Of a stretch of 64,000 nucleotides of DNA, positions 38,785-46,041 are shown piece by piece (position 1 is the first letter of the stretch; each line of letters begins with the position of its first letter). The notes below the pieces were generated by a model, which was not told the origin of the DNA, did not search any database, and saw only the letters and a program-made list of their open reading frames with translations. The DNA comes from Erysipelothrix urinaevulpis. GTDB taxonomy: Bacteria > Bacillota_I > Bacilli_A > Erysipelotrichales > Erysipelotrichaceae. The stretch lies in NCBI RefSeq assembly GCF_009828835.1, contig NZ_WTTB01000002.1:124001-188000 (forward strand). Direction: 5' to 3'. Both the position numbers and the translations under genes were made by a program.

Positions 38785-39937
38785 TTTTTAATAAATCTCC
38801 TGCAGATTTAAATGCCTTTAGATTTAATTCTTTATTTAATCGTTCAATTATGAGCGGAACATCAGGGTTTTCTACATCATTAAAAAGATTCAACTGTTCA
38901 AAGCTTTCATCTTTATTCACGAGATTTGCAACTGTAATCGATAAAAATGTGACCCCTGCCCCATCTGTGAATTCATCAAGCATGAGCATAGTTTTTTCAA
39001 AAATTTCATCCGCATCCTCTAAAATTTCTTGATAAGTTTGTGAACGGGCTGCGGTCGTATAATCATCCAAACGAATTGAGAATTGCAAAGTCCGCCCTGC
39101 TAATCCTGACTTTTTTAGTCGTCTTGACAACTCAACAACTTCAATCATTAAGGCATCTCGTATATCATCTTCACTATGCAAAGCAGTGGAATAGGTTTTA
39201 GATTGTCCCATTGATTTTGCAGTTGTAATGAGCTCAATAGGAGATTGATCATGCCCGTTTGCCTTTTGAATAAAAGTATAAGCTGAGTTGCCTAAAACTG
39301 GCTTTAAGCTGTCTAAACTACTTGTTGCAAGATCTCTAATCGTATGAATATTAATCTTTTTTAGTCGTGGTACAGTCTTTTTACCAATGCCATGCATGTC
39401 TTCGATTGGGAGTGGCCACAGTTTTTCTTCAACTTCTCTAATTCTAAGAACTGTAATTCCCATCGGTTTTTTCATATCGGATGCCATTTTAGCTAAAAAT
39501 TTGTTAGGGGCAACGCCAATAGAAATTGGAAGTTGTAGTTCTTGCATAACTCGTTGTTGAATTTCAACAGCAAGGTCCAAGGGTTTGTCATAGTTTTTGA
39601 TTATTTCGCCAACTTCGACATAACATTCATCGATACTTGCCGGTTGCATGTAAGGAGAATATGAACGAATAATGGCCATAAATTCTGCTGAAAGCTCTTG
39701 ATAAAGATTAAAATCAATATCAACAACACTTAGATTGGGACATAATTGTTTTGCTTGGACCAGTGGCATTGCACTGTGAACTCCATAAGCCCTTGCTTCA
39801 TAGGACGCTGTTGTAACCACTGATGAGCGGTTATTAGAACAAACAACTATCGGCTTATCTTTTAATTCAGGGTTTTCTGTTTGATGTGCAGATGCAAAAA
39901 ATGCATTAATATCGATATGAAATATGACTTGTGCCAT
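38774..39937 (-). CDS. dinB: DNA polymerase IV (Y family)
   Basis: A translesion polymerase of 387 residues. Catalytic acidic residues are in HIDINAFFAS (residues 7-16) and SIDECYVEV near 105; the helix-hairpin-helix PIEDMHGIGKKT is near residue 185, and the little-finger domain follows. The C-terminal QLNLF stretch is a likely beta-clamp binding motif. Its ATG shares one base with the recN stop (TAATG). Confidence 0.94.
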   Translation of the reverse strand: MAQVIFHIDINAFFASAHQTENPELKDKPIVVCSNNRSSVVTTASYEARAYGVHSAMPLVQAKQLCPNLSVVDIDFNLYQELSAEFMAIIRSYSPYMQPASIDECYVEVGEIIKNYDKPLDLAVEIQQRVMQELQLPISIGVAPNKFLAKMASDMKKPMGITVLRIREVEEKLWPLPIEDMHGIGKKTVPRLKKINIHTIRDLATSSLDSLKPVLGNSAYTFIQKANGHDQSPIELITTAKSMGQSKTYSTALHSEDDIRDALMIEVVELSRRLKKSGLAGRTLQFSIRLDDYTTAARSQTYQEILEDADEIFEKTMLMLDEFTDGAGVTFLSITVANLVNKDESFEQLNLFNDVENPDVPLIIERLNKELNLKAFKSAGDLLKNES

Positions 39938-41565
39938 TAATTATTCTGACCTTCTTCTAATAATAATTGTGCTGCAGCGATACTGGATGGATTTGTATTA
40001 CCAGCCATCATCATTGCTAATTCCGCAATTCTTTGTTTTTTTGTTAGCTGAGTTAAAGCGCTTGTACTTTGCTTATCATCATCACTTTTTGTAATGAGGT
40101 AATGAACATCCGCATACGCTGCTACTGAGCTTAAGTGGGTTATAGTAAGAACTTGAGCATTGTTTGATAATTGCTTCATTTTATGTGCAATGGCTAAACC
40201 AGCTTTTCCACTCACACCTGTATCAATTTCGTCAAACACTATTGTAGTAATGCCAAATATATCAGAGAAGATAACTTTCAATCCTAACATAAGGCGTGAT
40301 AATTCCCCACCACTTGCTACTTTAGCTAAGGGTTGTAATTCGCTTCCTTTATTCATAGCTACTTCAAAATAAACAGAGTCCTGCCCAAAAACATCGAGCT
40401 CTTTCTGACGTATATTTACTTTAAATATTGCATTTTCAAGCAATAAATCGTTCAGTTGTTCGAGAATTTTCCGTTCCAAGCGCGCTTTATTCTTATTTCT
40501 TTTCTGAGATAAATTTCGTGCTTTCTCTAGTGTTTTAATCTCTTGTTGTTCGATTTTCTTATCAAGTATTTGGTTTAAATAGTCGAAATCTTCTGATTGA
40601 TTAATCACCGTTTGAAATGATTCAATTTTATCAATTAAGTTTTCTAAACTACCATATTTCCGGATTAACTTACTGTATTCAAACATACGTTTGTTCAGTT
40701 GATCAAATTCAAATTCATCAAACACCATTGAATCGGATACTTTGTTGTACTCAAGATTAAAATCATCAAGACGATAATAAAGGTCTTTAAATTCTTGATT
40801 ATACTCACTCAACCTTGAGGTTTCAAATGCTTCAAGAACAGGATATAAACTTTCCATCGCTTGAGAAAGACCTTTTTTAATTTGTGCATCATTTTGAGAG
40901 TGTTTTTCAAAGTTTTTCATAATGTTAAGTGAGTTTTCAAGTTCTTCATAATCTTTAAGGCTTGGATTAAGAGTTTCTATTTCTTTTAATTGAAACTTAG
41001 CAAACTCAATCGCTTCCGGACCGTTATTACTTTCTAATAATTCTTTTTTCTCTTTGATTAAGTCTTGCAATTTTTTGTATTCATTTTGATATTCACTTAG
41101 CTCTTGCTGATTTTTTGAAAAAAGATCCAATAACCGCAAGTGATTGTTCTGTTTAAGTAGATATTGAGTTTCGTGTTGTGAATGGATGTCAATCATCAAT
41201 GAAGAAATTTCTTTTAAAACGGATAAGTTTACAAGTCGGCCATTAATTCTGGCTGTACTTCTTCCATCCTGTGTCATTTCTCGACTTAAAATCAATGAAT
41301 CAGCTTCATATAGGTCATAATCATGTAATTTATTAACAACCTCATGTGTTGAAGGGAGTCTAAAAACAGCTTCAACACGCGTCGTTTCAGAATGTGGACC
41401 CACAACACTTGCACTACTTCTTTGTCCAGTTACAAAATTTAATGCATCCACAAGCAAGGATTTCCCAGCTCCTGTTTCACCTGTAAACACGTTAAAATTA
41501 TTGGATAAAGTAATTTCATTTTCTTTAATTAGAACATAGTTTTGAACTTTGAGGTGATCGAGCAT
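39937..41565 (-). CDS. recN: DNA repair protein RecN
   Basis: RecN is an SMC-like ATPase acting early in double-strand break repair. The 542-residue protein has Walker A GETGAGKSLLVDALN near residue 30, two long coiled-coil arms (about 150-370), the ABC signature SGGELSRLMLGLK and Walker B VFDEIDTGVSG. It starts 4 bases after the dxs-like stop. The argR and tlyA genes that usually precede recN in Firmicutes are absent. Confidence 0.95.
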   Translation of the reverse strand: MLDHLKVQNYVLIKENEITLSNNFNVFTGETGAGKSLLVDALNFVTGQRSSASVVGPHSETTRVEAVFRLPSTHEVVNKLHDYDLYEADSLILSREMTQDGRSTARINGRLVNLSVLKEISSLMIDIHSQHETQYLLKQNNHLRLLDLFSKNQQELSEYQNEYKKLQDLIKEKKELLESNNGPEAIEFAKFQLKEIETLNPSLKDYEELENSLNIMKNFEKHSQNDAQIKKGLSQAMESLYPVLEAFETSRLSEYNQEFKDLYYRLDDFNLEYNKVSDSMVFDEFEFDQLNKRMFEYSKLIRKYGSLENLIDKIESFQTVINQSEDFDYLNQILDKKIEQQEIKTLEKARNLSQKRNKNKARLERKILEQLNDLLLENAIFKVNIRQKELDVFGQDSVYFEVAMNKGSELQPLAKVASGGELSRLMLGLKVIFSDIFGITTIVFDEIDTGVSGKAGLAIAHKMKQLSNNAQVLTITHLSSVAAYADVHYLITKSDDDKQSTSALTQLTKKQRIAELAMMMAGNTNPSSIAAAQLLLEEGQNN

Positions 41566-41569
41566 TGGT

Positions 41570-43273
41570 TTATTTCCTTTCTATAATTGTGATTGCATCT
41601 TCGATGTGAAGATGATTTTTTGTTTTGATATCTTTACTACTGCCTTCAAATGTAAGTCCTGATAAATTCATTTCAATCAATGGGAAATTACTTTGAATGC
41701 TTAGGAGATATTGTCTGATAGTATAAGAGAGCAAATCAAACTCCCCTTCAATGTTATAAACTAGAGTTGGCACATCTGCATCGATGATTTTTTGTAATAA
41801 TTCTTCATCAACTTGATTAAGTATTTGCGCATCAATCAAAGCAATATTCAAATTATTTGTTGTGATTTTCTTTTTAAATGAGTGGATAGCAGGTCCAAAA
41901 CTGATAATAATGCCTTCTGTTTTTTCGTTGATTTCTAGTGTTTCTTTCCATATATGTGGTTCATCTTTAGCATCTTCATGATTATCAATGGTTTGTGCAA
42001 TCCTTAAAACTGTAAATCCATCTTGATTAAAATGGTGGTCTATAATTGTTTTCATTGCCCCTATCGTTGAAGGCATGAAGATGGGTGTATCTGAAAGTTG
42101 TAGGTATGAAGCCAAGTCATAAACTGCTGAATGCAATAAACGATCATGACGTGCAAGTCCTGCTTCATATACAACAAGAAGCACTTTATAGTTTTCACGA
42201 TCAAAGTGATGACGTAATCGATCCATAACTTGGGAAACCCTAAAGGCAGAAATTAAAAGCACAACCTTTTTCCCTTCTTTCGCAAAGCCATATGCCATGT
42301 CAACCAGTGCTGATGTTGATGAATTAACAGCAAAGTATTGTCGTGGTCTGAATTGAGAATAATGGATTAGATGCTCTGAAACGCTTAACCCATCAGACAA
42401 TATAAACAAGTCATCTTCTTTGTGGTTAGTGACAAAATATTCATCCAATGCTTCGATATATGTTTTGTAATAGGCTGGAATTGTTTGGTCGAGTTTGTAA
42501 TTAGGGAACTCTAATTTACGTCGTTTTTTATTTCTTAGTCGCGTTTGAGTATGAATCACATACGGACCAATAAATTTTTCCGACAACTTTAAGACTCGGA
42601 CACACTCGTTCATGTTTTGACCATCAATTGGACCATGATAATTAATGTTAAACTGTGTAAAAATAGATGGTTCTAAAACAGTTTCTTTCACCTGATCACG
42701 GATCCATGTTAATGAGTCCAAGAGTGGTTTTGAAACAGGATTGTTTAAAACAGATTTCATATCACTCTTAAGAGATGTGTATGCTTTTGATATTCGTACT
42801 GACTTAATAATCGCGTCAATTGAACTATAGTGCCGTAATAAGGAATGTTGTTCATCCATCATAATGATAACCAAACTTGGGTTTTCTTTTGCAATCTCAA
42901 CAAGCGATTCGTAGGTCGAACCCTTGCTAAGAGCGTGGTCATTAATAATAACAAATGTTTTACCCTCTGTATAAACTAAGGACTGAGCAAGCGCTTCTCC
43001 TAAAGCCCATCCGGCTTCACTTGGCCCGGTATAATGAATCTGTTTCCCCAAAAGAATTTGATGGACAAGACTTTGTTCCTCTTGATCAAAAATCACTCGG
43101 TTTGAATCCATATCAAAAAGGTGATGAAGAGCTACTGTCATTTCTAAAACATTGATGTTTTGCATCACAGTTTCCACATCATAAGGACTTTCTTTTGCTA
43201 GATAAAGTGCAATATCGTCTGAGAGTTTTTCTAACTCTTCCAACGTCATTGATTGAATGTTTTGAATATCCAC
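41570..43273 (-). CDS. DXS-like protein with degenerate active site
   Basis: The 567-residue product is derived from 1-deoxy-D-xylulose-5-phosphate synthase: YHGPIDGQNM, AYGFAKEGKKV and overall order match, and it follows ispA. Key residues are gone. The GDG thiamine-diphosphate motif reads NDH (IINDHALSKG), its paired Asn is Met, the His of DVGHQAYPHK is Glu (DQEEQSLVHQ), the GHSSTS segment is deleted, and the catalytic Glu of AEQHA is Thr. The frame is intact, with a GTG start after AAGGAG. It should not make DXP; a structural or regulatory role is possible. Confidence 0.85.
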   Translation of the reverse strand: MDIQNIQSMTLEELEKLSDDIALYLAKESPYDVETVMQNINVLEMTVALHHLFDMDSNRVIFDQEEQSLVHQILLGKQIHYTGPSEAGWALGEALAQSLVYTEGKTFVIINDHALSKGSTYESLVEIAKENPSLVIIMMDEQHSLLRHYSSIDAIIKSVRISKAYTSLKSDMKSVLNNPVSKPLLDSLTWIRDQVKETVLEPSIFTQFNINYHGPIDGQNMNECVRVLKLSEKFIGPYVIHTQTRLRNKKRRKLEFPNYKLDQTIPAYYKTYIEALDEYFVTNHKEDDLFILSDGLSVSEHLIHYSQFRPRQYFAVNSSTSALVDMAYGFAKEGKKVVLLISAFRVSQVMDRLRHHFDRENYKVLLVVYEAGLARHDRLLHSAVYDLASYLQLSDTPIFMPSTIGAMKTIIDHHFNQDGFTVLRIAQTIDNHEDAKDEPHIWKETLEINEKTEGIIISFGPAIHSFKKKITTNNLNIALIDAQILNQVDEELLQKIIDADVPTLVYNIEGEFDLLSYTIRQYLLSIQSNFPLIEMNLSGLTFEGSSKDIKTKNHLHIEDAITIIERK

Positions 43274-43297
43274 ACTTAACGCTCCTTTTTATTAGTT

Positions 43298-44134
43298 TTA
43301 ATAATTTCTTTTTACAATCTCATCAATTAAATTTTTAACTGTATTGCCGGTTCCGCCCAACAACTCTAAATCATCATAAAATGATTGAACAAGTTTTTCT
43401 TTATAATTAATGGCTTCGTCCAAACCCAATAAAGTTACGACTGTGACTTTTTCTTCTAAAACGTCACTTTTAACATCTTTGCCAATTTCTTCAAAACTTT
43501 TCGTATATTCTAATAAGTCATCTTGAACCTGGAATAGTACTCCAAGCTTATGACCTAAAGTAGACGCTAACTCTTGTTTATCTTTCTTTCCTGCAATGAC
43601 AACAGCCATTTCAAAGGCAGCTGCGAAAAGTTTCCCTGTTTTATGTTCGTAAGAAACGATTAGATCATCCAGAGTTTTCATTTGATTATCAATATCGAGT
43701 TCCTGTCCGAGAATCATTCCGTAAATACCTGCATTTCGAGATAGGATTTCAATACACGTTAACACAATCCCATCTGACAAGGATGACTGTAAACAATTTT
43801 GAAAGGAATAGGTGAGCAGAGCATCACCAGCTAAAATTGCCATCCCTTCGCCATAAACTTTATGATTTGTTAAGCGATGACGACGGTAATCATCGTCATC
43901 CATTGCCGGTAAATCATCATGAACAAGAGAATATGTGTGAATCATTTCCAATGATGATGCAAAAGGAAGTCCTTTTGTGACATCCACTTCAAAGTCTTTC
44001 AGAAGACTAAGGAGCAATTGTGACCGTAAGCGTTTTCCATCACCTAAAAGTGAATAAGCCATTGCCTCCTTGACAATTGAATTCGGAATGAGATCCATAG
44101 TTTCTTGTAAATTATTATTGATTAAGTCTTTCAT
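43298..44134 (-). CDS. ispA: polyprenyl (farnesyl/geranyl) diphosphate synthase
   Basis: IspA condenses isopentenyl diphosphate units into short polyprenyl diphosphates for undecaprenyl lipid and quinone precursors. The 278-residue enzyme keeps the first Asp-rich motif DDLPAMDDDDYRR near residue 75 and NHKVYGEGMAILAGDALL. The second motif is DDLLE, with Glu for the last Asp, and the following SDVLEEKVT differs from the usual SD-x-KNKST. It overlaps xseB by 4 bases. Probably active, with small changes in the second motif. Confidence 0.92.
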   Translation of the reverse strand: MKDLINNNLQETMDLIPNSIVKEAMAYSLLGDGKRLRSQLLLSLLKDFEVDVTKGLPFASSLEMIHTYSLVHDDLPAMDDDDYRRHRLTNHKVYGEGMAILAGDALLTYSFQNCLQSSLSDGIVLTCIEILSRNAGIYGMILGQELDIDNQMKTLDDLIVSYEHKTGKLFAAAFEMAVVIAGKKDKQELASTLGHKLGVLFQVQDDLLEYTKSFEEIGKDVKSDVLEEKVTVVTLLGLDEAINYKEKLVQSFYDDLELLGGTGNTVKNLIDEIVKRNY

Positions 44135-44337
44135 TCATTGCCTCCTTGATGTTTTTTCACGAGTTGGTTAACCTTTGTTTCATAATCATTTAATTTTTTT
44201 TGACACTGAGCCGACAGTTCGAGCCCTTCCTCAAAAAGTTTAAGTGCTGTATCCATTTCAATAGTATCATTTGCTAATTCTTCAGAAATTACATTTAAGC
44301 GTTGCATTGCTTTATCAAAGTTAAATTCATTCATCAT
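44131..44337 (-). CDS. xseB: exodeoxyribonuclease VII small subunit
   Basis: XseB is the small coiled-coil subunit that packs around XseA. The 68-residue protein has FDKAMQRLNVISEELANDTI and LEEGLELSAQCQKKL-like family features (here LFEEGLELSAQCQKKLNDYE). I start it at ATG 44337, 7 bases after GAAGGG; TTG 44343 is the alternative. It is separated from xseA by a terminator and a promoter, so the two subunits are in different transcription units. Confidence 0.92.
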   Translation of the reverse strand: MMNEFNFDKAMQRLNVISEELANDTIEMDTALKLFEEGLELSAQCQKKLNDYETKVNQLVKKHQGGNE

Positions 44338-44369
44338 ATTCAATCCCTTCTTAGCGTTTATTCACTTAT

Positions 44370-44574: not shown

Positions 44575-46041
44575 TTAAGATTTGTTTTTGCTAACAGATT
44601 GAACTTTAGCACGCAAATGACCATCTGTTAATTTTACGACAATTTCATCGTTCTCGTCAACATCATCAACCGTTGTAATCACTTTATTTTCAATTGATGC
44701 AATGGAATATCCTTTTGCCATGATTGTGAGTGGCGATAAATGATGAAGTGTTTCGAGTTGGTTTTTAAAATAGAGCTGTTTAACCCGAAGGTTTTCATGC
44801 ATTCGTTGTTGAATAACATCAACATGACTTTTTAGCGTTAATGATAGCATTTTACTTCGGTTCATGATTGCTTGCTCATCGAATGTGAAGCCCTTGAGCT
44901 GTAATTGTTTATGTTTAAGAACTTGATTAATTAGAGCTGTTTGGTTGGTTGTTTGCCTATCTAATTGATAAACAGATTGATTTTGTAAGTGTTCCATTGA
45001 ATTAACAAGAGACTGACTTATTTGTCCAATCTTTGTGTTGACGCGTTGAAATCGACTCATTACTTGTGTGAATTCTACATTAACATGGTCTAAGCCTTGT
45101 TGTTTTAATCCAAAAAAATGCTCAGAATTGTTCAAATAAGAATGTTTCATTATTTCTGTGTATGTATTTTTATAACTTAATTCTTTCCGTTTAATTTGCA
45201 CATAAAAGAAATTCATTCGATCTTTAATGGTTTTGCGAACCACATGTTGGTCAGGACATGCAGCGACAACGGCTGCGGTTGGTGTTGCTGCACGATAATC
45301 TGCGGCAAGTTCTGAAAGTGTTGTATCACTTTCATGGCCAATCGCACAGATAACAGGTTTCTTTGATTGAATGATCGCAACGACAACGGCTTCCTCATTA
45401 AAAGCCCACAAATCTTCGATTGAACCACCACCACGCGATAAAATGATTGTATCAACAGCTTCATCGTCATTCGCTTGTTGAATCGCTTGAATTAAACTAG
45501 GCGCAGCGTACTCGCCTTGAACATAGGCAAATAAATCCAATTGGGTCGCTTGTGGCCATCTATTTTGCAAGGTTTTTGTAATGTCTGCATGAGCTGCAGA
45601 ATTTTGACCTGTAATGACCGCTATTTTCTCTGGATATTCTGGGATTGCTTTTTTTAATTCCGGATTAAAATAACCTAATTCATAGCATTTTTTCTTGAGT
45701 TCTTCATACCGAAGGTGAAGGTCTCCTAAACCATCTAACATCATCGTTTTAGCATAAAATTGCACTTTACCACTGGCTAAATAGACATCACAAAAACCAG
45801 TGACTAATACTTTATCACCGTCTTTTGGTTTAAATTTTATTTTGGAGGAATACGAAGCAAACATGACACAATCAATCCGTGACTTGTCGTCTTTCATCGT
45901 AAAATAAAAATGCCCACTACGATGCGAGTTAAAATTAGATAGCTCTCCCATTAGCGCGACATTTTTTAGTGATTCACTATGGTTAACGGTTTGCTTCAAT
46001 TGATGAACTAATTGGGAAACTGTTACATGGTCTTGAATCAT
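44575..46041 (-). CDS. xseA: exodeoxyribonuclease VII large subunit
   Basis: XseA is the catalytic subunit of exonuclease VII, which degrades single-stranded DNA. The 488-residue protein has an N-terminal OB fold (ALMGELSNFNSHRSGHFYF), the catalytic domain with ITGQNSAAHADI, SRGGGSIEDLWAFNEE and AIGHESDTTL, then a long helical region. It overlaps nusB by 4 bases. Confidence 0.96.
   Translation of the reverse strand: MIQDHVTVSQLVHQLKQTVNHSESLKNVALMGELSNFNSHRSGHFYFTMKDDKSRIDCVMFASYSSKIKFKPKDGDKVLVTGFCDVYLASGKVQFYAKTMMLDGLGDLHLRYEELKKKCYELGYFNPELKKAIPEYPEKIAVITGQNSAAHADITKTLQNRWPQATQLDLFAYVQGEYAAPSLIQAIQQANDDEAVDTIILSRGGGSIEDLWAFNEEAVVVAIIQSKKPVICAIGHESDTTLSELAADYRAATPTAAVVAACPDQHVVRKTIKDRMNFFYVQIKRKELSYKNTYTEIMKHSYLNNSEHFFGLKQQGLDHVNVEFTQVMSRFQRVNTKIGQISQSLVNSMEHLQNQSVYQLDRQTTNQTALINQVLKHKQLQLKGFTFDEQAIMNRSKMLSLTLKSHVDVIQQRMHENLRVKQLYFKNQLETLHHLSPLTIMAKGYSIASIENKVITTVDDVDENDEIVVKLTDGHLRAKVQSVSKNKS

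Follow-up and report, generated by a model that had tools for sequence, protein, structure and literature searches.

Can a gene that descends from dxs be kept intact in its old operon once the active site is gone, and if so, what is it kept for? The question is raised by an open frame in the window, by which we mean the whole stretch of Erysipelothrix urinaevulpis DNA analysed here (64,000 nt of contig NZ_WTTB01000002.1, from a 1.91 Mb genome in 24 contigs that is 92.8% complete). The frame lies at 41570-43273 on the minus strand and runs for 567 codons from a GTG start with no internal stops, and a ribosome-binding-site-like GGAG is found 8 nt upstream of the GTG (43282..43285), bearing out the sequence-only reading of this locus, which had described an open frame with a good ribosome binding site. 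It sits 24 nt from the upstream gene ispA, a prenyl diphosphate synthase gene (43298..44134), and 4 nt from the downstream gene recN (39937..41565), with a small xseB-like ORF (44131..44343) that shares 4 nt with the start of ispA, and xseA beyond it (44575..46041), all on the minus strand. These neighbours are named presumptively, by operon order and general knowledge of the families rather than by family search. We refer to the position between ispA and recN as the slot.

Descent from DXS, as the first reading had claimed, was confirmed by a best PDB match to E. coli DXS 2o1s (E 2.6e-27), a match to Pfam DXP_synthase_N (2.6e-37) and a match to the NCBIfam dxs model TIGR00204. On TIGR00204, whose cut-off is 465.95, it scored 153 bits, placing the protein below the curated equivalog threshold. 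To see what had become of the active site we used 13 positions (E. coli numbering H49, H80, H122, D152, N181, H299, E370, Y392, R398, R420, D427, H431 and R478), a list of our own compilation. PMC12633525 and PMC11019550 back the active-site role of H431, D427, H49, H299, R420 and R478. The window protein keeps three of the 13 (D152 as D112, D427 as D377 and H431 as H381), its 12 genus-mates keep one or two, and intact DXS rows (n = 38) keep 11-13. At the remaining positions H49 has become T35, H80 E66, H122 E86, N181 E141, E370 T320, Y392 S342, R398 Q348, R420 E370 and R478 Q427, H299 is deleted, and G151-D152-G153 reads N111-D112-H113. The first reading had correctly seen the His of DVGHQ change to Glu and the catalytic Glu of AEQHA to Thr. 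Its change of GDG to NDH stands for both glycines, with the correction that the Asp is retained (in 12 of 13 Erysipelothrix rows, this one included), and its exchange of the Mg-ligand Asn for Met does not stand: the Met aligns with N179, and N181, which we take to be the Mg ligand in E. coli DXS, aligns with Glu (11 of 13 rows). The original GHSSTS stretch is indeed gone, but it is replaced rather than simply deleted; a gap of 19 columns directly before its position (alignment A1) is largely common to two genus-mates, G151 and G152, and the residues missing in this gap are present in the other ten. A misaligned active site was considered and rejected, as no shift was seen against PDB sequences or, in MAFFT alignments, against E. 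coli DXS. The slot protein is a DXS descendant that, by these alignments, is apparently dead as a catalyst.

An orthologue was found in all 13 Erysipelothrix genomes searched, always in the ispA-X-recN slot and always as an open frame (560-592 aa), so that no frame disruption was seen in relatives. The named species with relatives of the slot protein include E. tonsillarum, E. anatis, E. aquatica and E. inopinata among others (8 loci). The order xseA-ispA-X-recN is kept across the genus wherever the contig extends far enough, and the gene lies 9-24 nt from ispA in 12 of 13 genomes (137 nt in G151). TIGR00204 matched all 13 slot proteins, and in whole-genome searches 0 of 13 genomes had a dxs above the cut-off, 0 of 13 had dxr and 0 of 13 had ispH. 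Mevalonate-diphosphate decarboxylase was found in 13 of 13 and HMG-CoA reductase in 12 of 13; the one genome with no HMG-CoA reductase match, G152 (97% complete), does have the decarboxylase. The search covered these five genes of the two pathways; DXP also feeds thiamine and pyridoxal synthesis. Since the mevalonate genes are present and the tested MEP genes are absent, Erysipelothrix appears to make its isoprenoids via mevalonate. A second intact dxs in the host genome was rejected: apart from the slot protein, TIGR00204 picks up three ORFs or ORF pairs (C20, C11 and C22), all below the cut-off and matching mainly the C-terminal half of the profile, and by length and position they are presumably of the transketolase or pyruvate-dehydrogenase type. 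In G151 the best dxs-model match, outscoring the slot protein, is a split transketolase-like pair of 278 + 309 aa (L119 2377-4143) that adjoins transporter-like ORFs.

Selection on the gene was estimated as Nei-Gojobori dN/dS with our own script in eight pairs of genus members. The five closest pairs gave 0.053, 0.057, 0.059, 0.078 and 0.042 for the slot protein, compared with 0.036, 0.074, 0.073, 0.096 and 0.037 for IspA, 0.106, 0.089, 0.088, 0.124 and 0.093 for RecN, 0.074, 0.111, 0.104, 0.186 and 0.091 for XseA, and 0.047, 0.053, 0.051, 0.062 and 0.012 for DinB, these pairs being non-independent members of two species clusters that do not include the window species, with dS above 1 in three. 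The slot protein lies below RecN and XseA in 5/5 of these pairs, below IspA in 3/5 and above DinB in 5/5. The three farther pairs gave 0.152, 0.238 and 0.318 at a dS of ~1.8-2.0, where the method is unreliable; the nearest compared pair of the window protein, with G129, has 40% identity (27% beyond residue 262) and its 0.318 comes at saturated dS. Judged by the close pairs of genus-mates, the gene is under purifying selection and not decaying in the genus. Together with the pathway genes and the open frames, the values of 0.04-0.08 support the maintained pseudoenzyme proposed at the outset: homology to an enzyme with lost catalytic motifs is combined with purifying selection, seen in close genus-mate pairs and with the window species having no close pair.

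The constraint is unevenly spread. We divided the protein on the alignment, with borders of our own setting, into domain I (residues 1-262, 42488..43273), domain II (residues 263-430, 41984..42487), which aligns with the part of DXS holding E370, Y392, R398, R420, D427, H431 and R478, and domain III (residues 431-567 and the stop codon, 41570..41983), all on the minus strand. In DXS the diphosphate/metal side of the cofactor site lies in domain I, as does much of the dimer contact, and domain II forms half of the ThDP pocket. Across 11 species (leaving out G151 and G152, the most distant), invariant residues number 87/262 in domain I, 5/168 in II and 7/137 in III, compared with 64/285, 45/195 and 3/140 in 37 intact DXS rows (second copies included) under a 95% rule, the invariance rules differing between the two sets. 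In the five close pairs, dN/dS is 0.013, 0.026, 0.028, 0.045 and 0.020 for residues 1-262 and 0.084, 0.089, 0.096, 0.097 and 0.059 beyond. The first half is better conserved in 7/7 intact pairs too, by 0.01-0.18 identity, as against 0.20-0.26 in four Erysipelothrix pairs. From the invariant counts, constraint is shifted away from domain II, with E370 and the substrate contacts of DXS, and concentrated in domain I.

The fold was modelled with AlphaFold2. An alignment of the 13 genus sequences gave pLDDT 74, pTM 0.53 and a TM of 0.46-0.48 to E. coli DXS; one of 49 sequences that added other degenerate and intact DXS, the latter favouring a DXS fold in the model, gave pLDDT 82.4, pTM 0.75, and a TM of 0.72-0.75 with rmsd 3.9-4.0 against the four E. 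coli 2o1s chains. Among the 50 PDB matches listed for this model 49 are DXS and the last is a DXS-like enzyme. A DXS fold is predicted, less clearly so with the genus sequences alone. Our main reading, to which we give a probability of roughly 0.7, is that the slot protein is a maintained pseudoenzyme that lost catalysis after the mevalonate take-over, keeps a DXS-like fold and works by non-catalytic binding through domain I. In this sequence of events the mevalonate pathway would have taken over first and the active site would have been lost afterwards. The protein would still fold like DXS and form a dimer in solution, and would act as a binding partner, its constrained domain I now holding a new fixed motif at the former metal loop and a short basic stretch at the former catalytic lid. 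As a first guess it may act in the isoprenoid branch as a non-catalytic partner or regulator, close to the regulator or scaffold role that had been suggested earlier. Its operon neighbour IspA is the first candidate partner, but since the ispA neighbourhood is ancestral in the family (see the survey below), adjacency says little and we think this pairing rather doubtful.

The two new elements of domain I allow a more specific possibility. Residues 139-165 (42779..42859, minus strand) form a conserved motif, in the window MDEQHSLLRHYSS...RISKAY, that replaces DXS NDNEMSISEN and has a DEQxSLLRH core in 11 of 13 genus sequences; within it, residues 144-163 are modelled with pLDDT <50 in the 49-sequence model. 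At residues 243-257 (42503..42547, minus strand; window QTRLRNKKRRKLEFP) the spoon/fork lid with the catalytic H299 has given way to a short basic stretch whose pattern is QTR-[LI]-[KR]-x4-R-[KN]-L-[ED]-FP in 11 of 13 Erysipelothrix sequences; the role of this lid in DXS is described in PMC12633525. It is possible that an anion/metal site has been kept or rebuilt here that binds isopentenyl or dimethylallyl diphosphate and signals to IspA or to enzymes of the mevalonate pathway. IDP and DMADP act on DXS as inhibitors that compete with ThDP (PMC4993486), and the retained GDG Asp, the Glu at N181 and the basic stretch would suit such a sensor. However, most ThDP-site residues are changed, including both GDG glycines in the window protein, and the DEQ.SLLRH motif is found in 0 of 11 degenerate rows from outside Erysipelothrix, leaving this version unlikely.

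A different enzyme is less probable still. Of the columns conserved both in intact DXS and in the 11 Erysipelothrix species (90% rule), 42 hold the same residue and 18 a different one, several of the latter at or adjoining active-site motifs, as might be expected if the active site had been rebuilt for another ThDP-dependent or other reaction. The catalytic Glu is dispensable in some ThDP enzymes, such as glyoxylate carboligase. Against this, ten of the listed positions (H49, H80, H122, N181, H299, E370, Y392, R398, R420 and R478) are changed or deleted and domain II is almost unconstrained; because the lid and the GHSST stretch are gone together with the catalytic Glu and the majority of the substrate residues, we regard a changed reaction as improbable and return to the non-catalytic pseudoenzyme.

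How the slot fares beyond the genus was surveyed in 145 genomes of the window's GTDB family, 133 of them with an IspA match (the 12 others were left out). A slot was called intact when the contig with IspA also had an over-cut-off DXS no more than 4 kb away from it. Such a DXS was found near IspA in 91 genomes, elsewhere in 12 and nowhere in 30. The 133 slots comprise 91 with intact dxs, 20 with a degenerate open frame, 17 deletions and five at contig ends or split (G008, G027, G105, G116 and G119). Five of the degenerate frames are from Erysipelothrix (G000, G082, G108, G129 and G143) and 15 from outside it, eight of these with no intact dxs elsewhere (G009, G032, G103, G047, G049, G115, G127 and G144) and seven with one (G045, G071, G084, G098, G109, G114 and G130). 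The deletions, with no DXS-like ORF of at least 50 aa (G013, G023, G025, G026, G036, G041, G061, G073, G079, G096, G100, G121, G122, G123, G135, G138 and G140), show that loss of the gene is possible in the family. A TlyA-type ORF with S4 and FtsJ domains was present in 5/5 scanned non-Erysipelothrix slots with an extra ORF (L015, L081, L085, L086 and L100) and in none of the Erysipelothrix slots.

Among the 20 genomes with a degenerate slot, eight have dxr, seven have HMG-CoA reductase and five have neither (G032, G103, G049, G127 and G144). These five may be isoprenoid scavengers or incomplete assemblies, and several of the assemblies are incomplete. In g46, g24 and G114 the second, intact dxs falls with E. 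coli DXS in the tree, apart from the slot dxs, and in four g46 genomes (G045, G084, G109 and G130; L052, L055, L059 and L061) it adjoins dxr, which looks like a foreign MEP copy or cluster taking over catalysis. A separate set, some of them draft genomes, has dxr with the slot dxs gone and no over-cut-off dxs in the genome (G026, G073, G123 and G140 of g27, G121 of g24 and G096 of g20); in G026, G073 and G123 the dxs model matches at best C-terminal-half ORFs of 312-313 aa. Degeneration is uneven: G109 keeps 7/13 positions, H49 and E370 among them, and E370 also survives in G103 and G032, so some copies may not be fully dead.

The survey also bears on whether the frame is simply a decaying remnant that has not yet been broken. 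Outside Erysipelothrix the slot dN/dS of g46 and g33 (0.28-0.29) exceeds that of IspA (0.16-0.21), hinting at weaker selection, but in g24 it is 0.17 against 0.18, with dS saturated throughout. In g3 the slot copy of G115 is shortened to 435 aa (L093 3809-5116) and another genome, G135, has none, possibly a case of decay in progress. Single lineages such as G115 and G047 may be decaying. For the gene in Erysipelothrix it is very improbable, given the low dN/dS of the close pairs, the orthologue in every genome of the genus and a neutral simulation of the ORF (substitutions only) in which 12/2000 frames survived at 0.05 substitutions per site and 0/2000 at each level of 0.1 or more. Least probable of all is a role in cis, in which ispA and recN are linked through translation of the coding region while the protein itself contributes little: the 0-16 nt between the slot gene and recN in 13/13 genus genomes would fit, but purifying selection is focused on the amino acids of one domain and ispA and recN persist without the gene in the 17 deleted slots.

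With the maintained pseudoenzyme as the preferred reading, we asked what the degenerate copies still share and how often they arose. In 11 degenerate lineages, grouped by us, the ancestral residue is kept at a mean of 0.155 over 12 active-site columns against 0.465 over the 122 other conserved columns (134 in all), and 5/100000 permutation draws were as low, a test that is partly circular in that rows were called degenerate by sub-cut-off score and after viewing the active-site residues, and in which rows such as G047 and G115 are poorly aligned. Retention reaches at least 90% in nine columns (Y250, F243, E162, G422, H279, G256, G252, P253 and L88), eight in domain I and G422 in domain II. If E162 is on the dimer-contact helix, as in transketolase, the dimer may be retained. 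Intact and degenerate states are mixed within single genera: g33 (G076 intact, G103 and G032 degenerate), g10 (G064 intact, G009 degenerate) and g2 (G058 and G134 intact, G114 degenerate). On a DXS tree of 66 rows, where long branches attract each other, the degenerate label needs three changes, and the AU test does not reject one clade (p-AU 0.241). Removing 20 of 28 degenerate rows, a post hoc step made after the first tree, gave a borderline p-AU of 0.049 and a single clade in 0/200 bootstrap trees. An IspA+RecN tree was built from 70 slots, of which 27 are degenerate, 17 are deleted and 26 were taken from the 91 intact ones; on it the label needs nine changes, eight of them forced by starred branches ('quick' method). 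One origin of all degenerate copies is disfavoured by these nine changes, although the DXS tree permits one clade, and the better reading is that they likely arose several times, which falls short of proof.

Loss of the catalytic residues of DXS with retained selection in an old operon points to a second, non-catalytic job. Extending this to the whole family is more tentative, and we would sooner bet against it than for it: DXS of this family would long have had a further, non-catalytic function that goes with the ispA-recN slot. Where a foreign dxs elsewhere in the genome or the mevalonate pathway assumes catalysis, the slot copy would be released from that task and would, more than once, have turned into a protein with a purely non-catalytic role, which in Erysipelothrix would be binding through domain I across the genus. 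With intact, degenerate and missing copies in one slot, a role of DXS beyond DXP synthesis can be asked about directly. DXS is a drug target (PMC11019550) and the control point of the MEP pathway (PMC13001223). It is important to note for annotation that the clear DXS homology of such proteins can lead to the MEP entry step being wrongly assigned to their genomes. Pseudoenzymes in general are already known (review PMC10211241). A DXS pseudoenzyme, its recurrence in one slot, or DXS in Erysipelothrix was found in none of the matches listed, which consisted of titles and abstract starts with few subscription papers, and absence from print is not implied.

Compared with functional DXS, the slot protein shares ancestry, domain order, predicted fold and the place after ispA, and differs in its score (153 bits against 465.95), in that ten of the 13 active-site positions are altered or missing, and in the absence of dxr and ispH matches from its genome. 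It resembles the DXS-like subfamily PRK12315 (NF008968) in being a shorter DXS-like protein (profile length 582), but at 96.7 bits against a cut-off of 510 it is not a member. Human TKTL1 is likewise a ThDP-enzyme relative missing active-site residues. A TKT delta-38 model had no activity according to PMC3485151, and the status of TKTL1 is disputed, as the title of PMC6334435 calls it a bona fide transketolase. Unlike the slot protein, TKTL1 belongs to another branch of the superfamily and is not a bacterial operon protein. Similar in circumstance is the partial MEP pathway of Listeria, where MEP genes are also retained in a mevalonate-using genus and where, in PMC13001223, a stress-signalling role is proposed for MEcDP. 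Listeria, however, retains a run of MEP steps leading to MEcDP, whereas Erysipelothrix retains a single gene without its catalytic residues.
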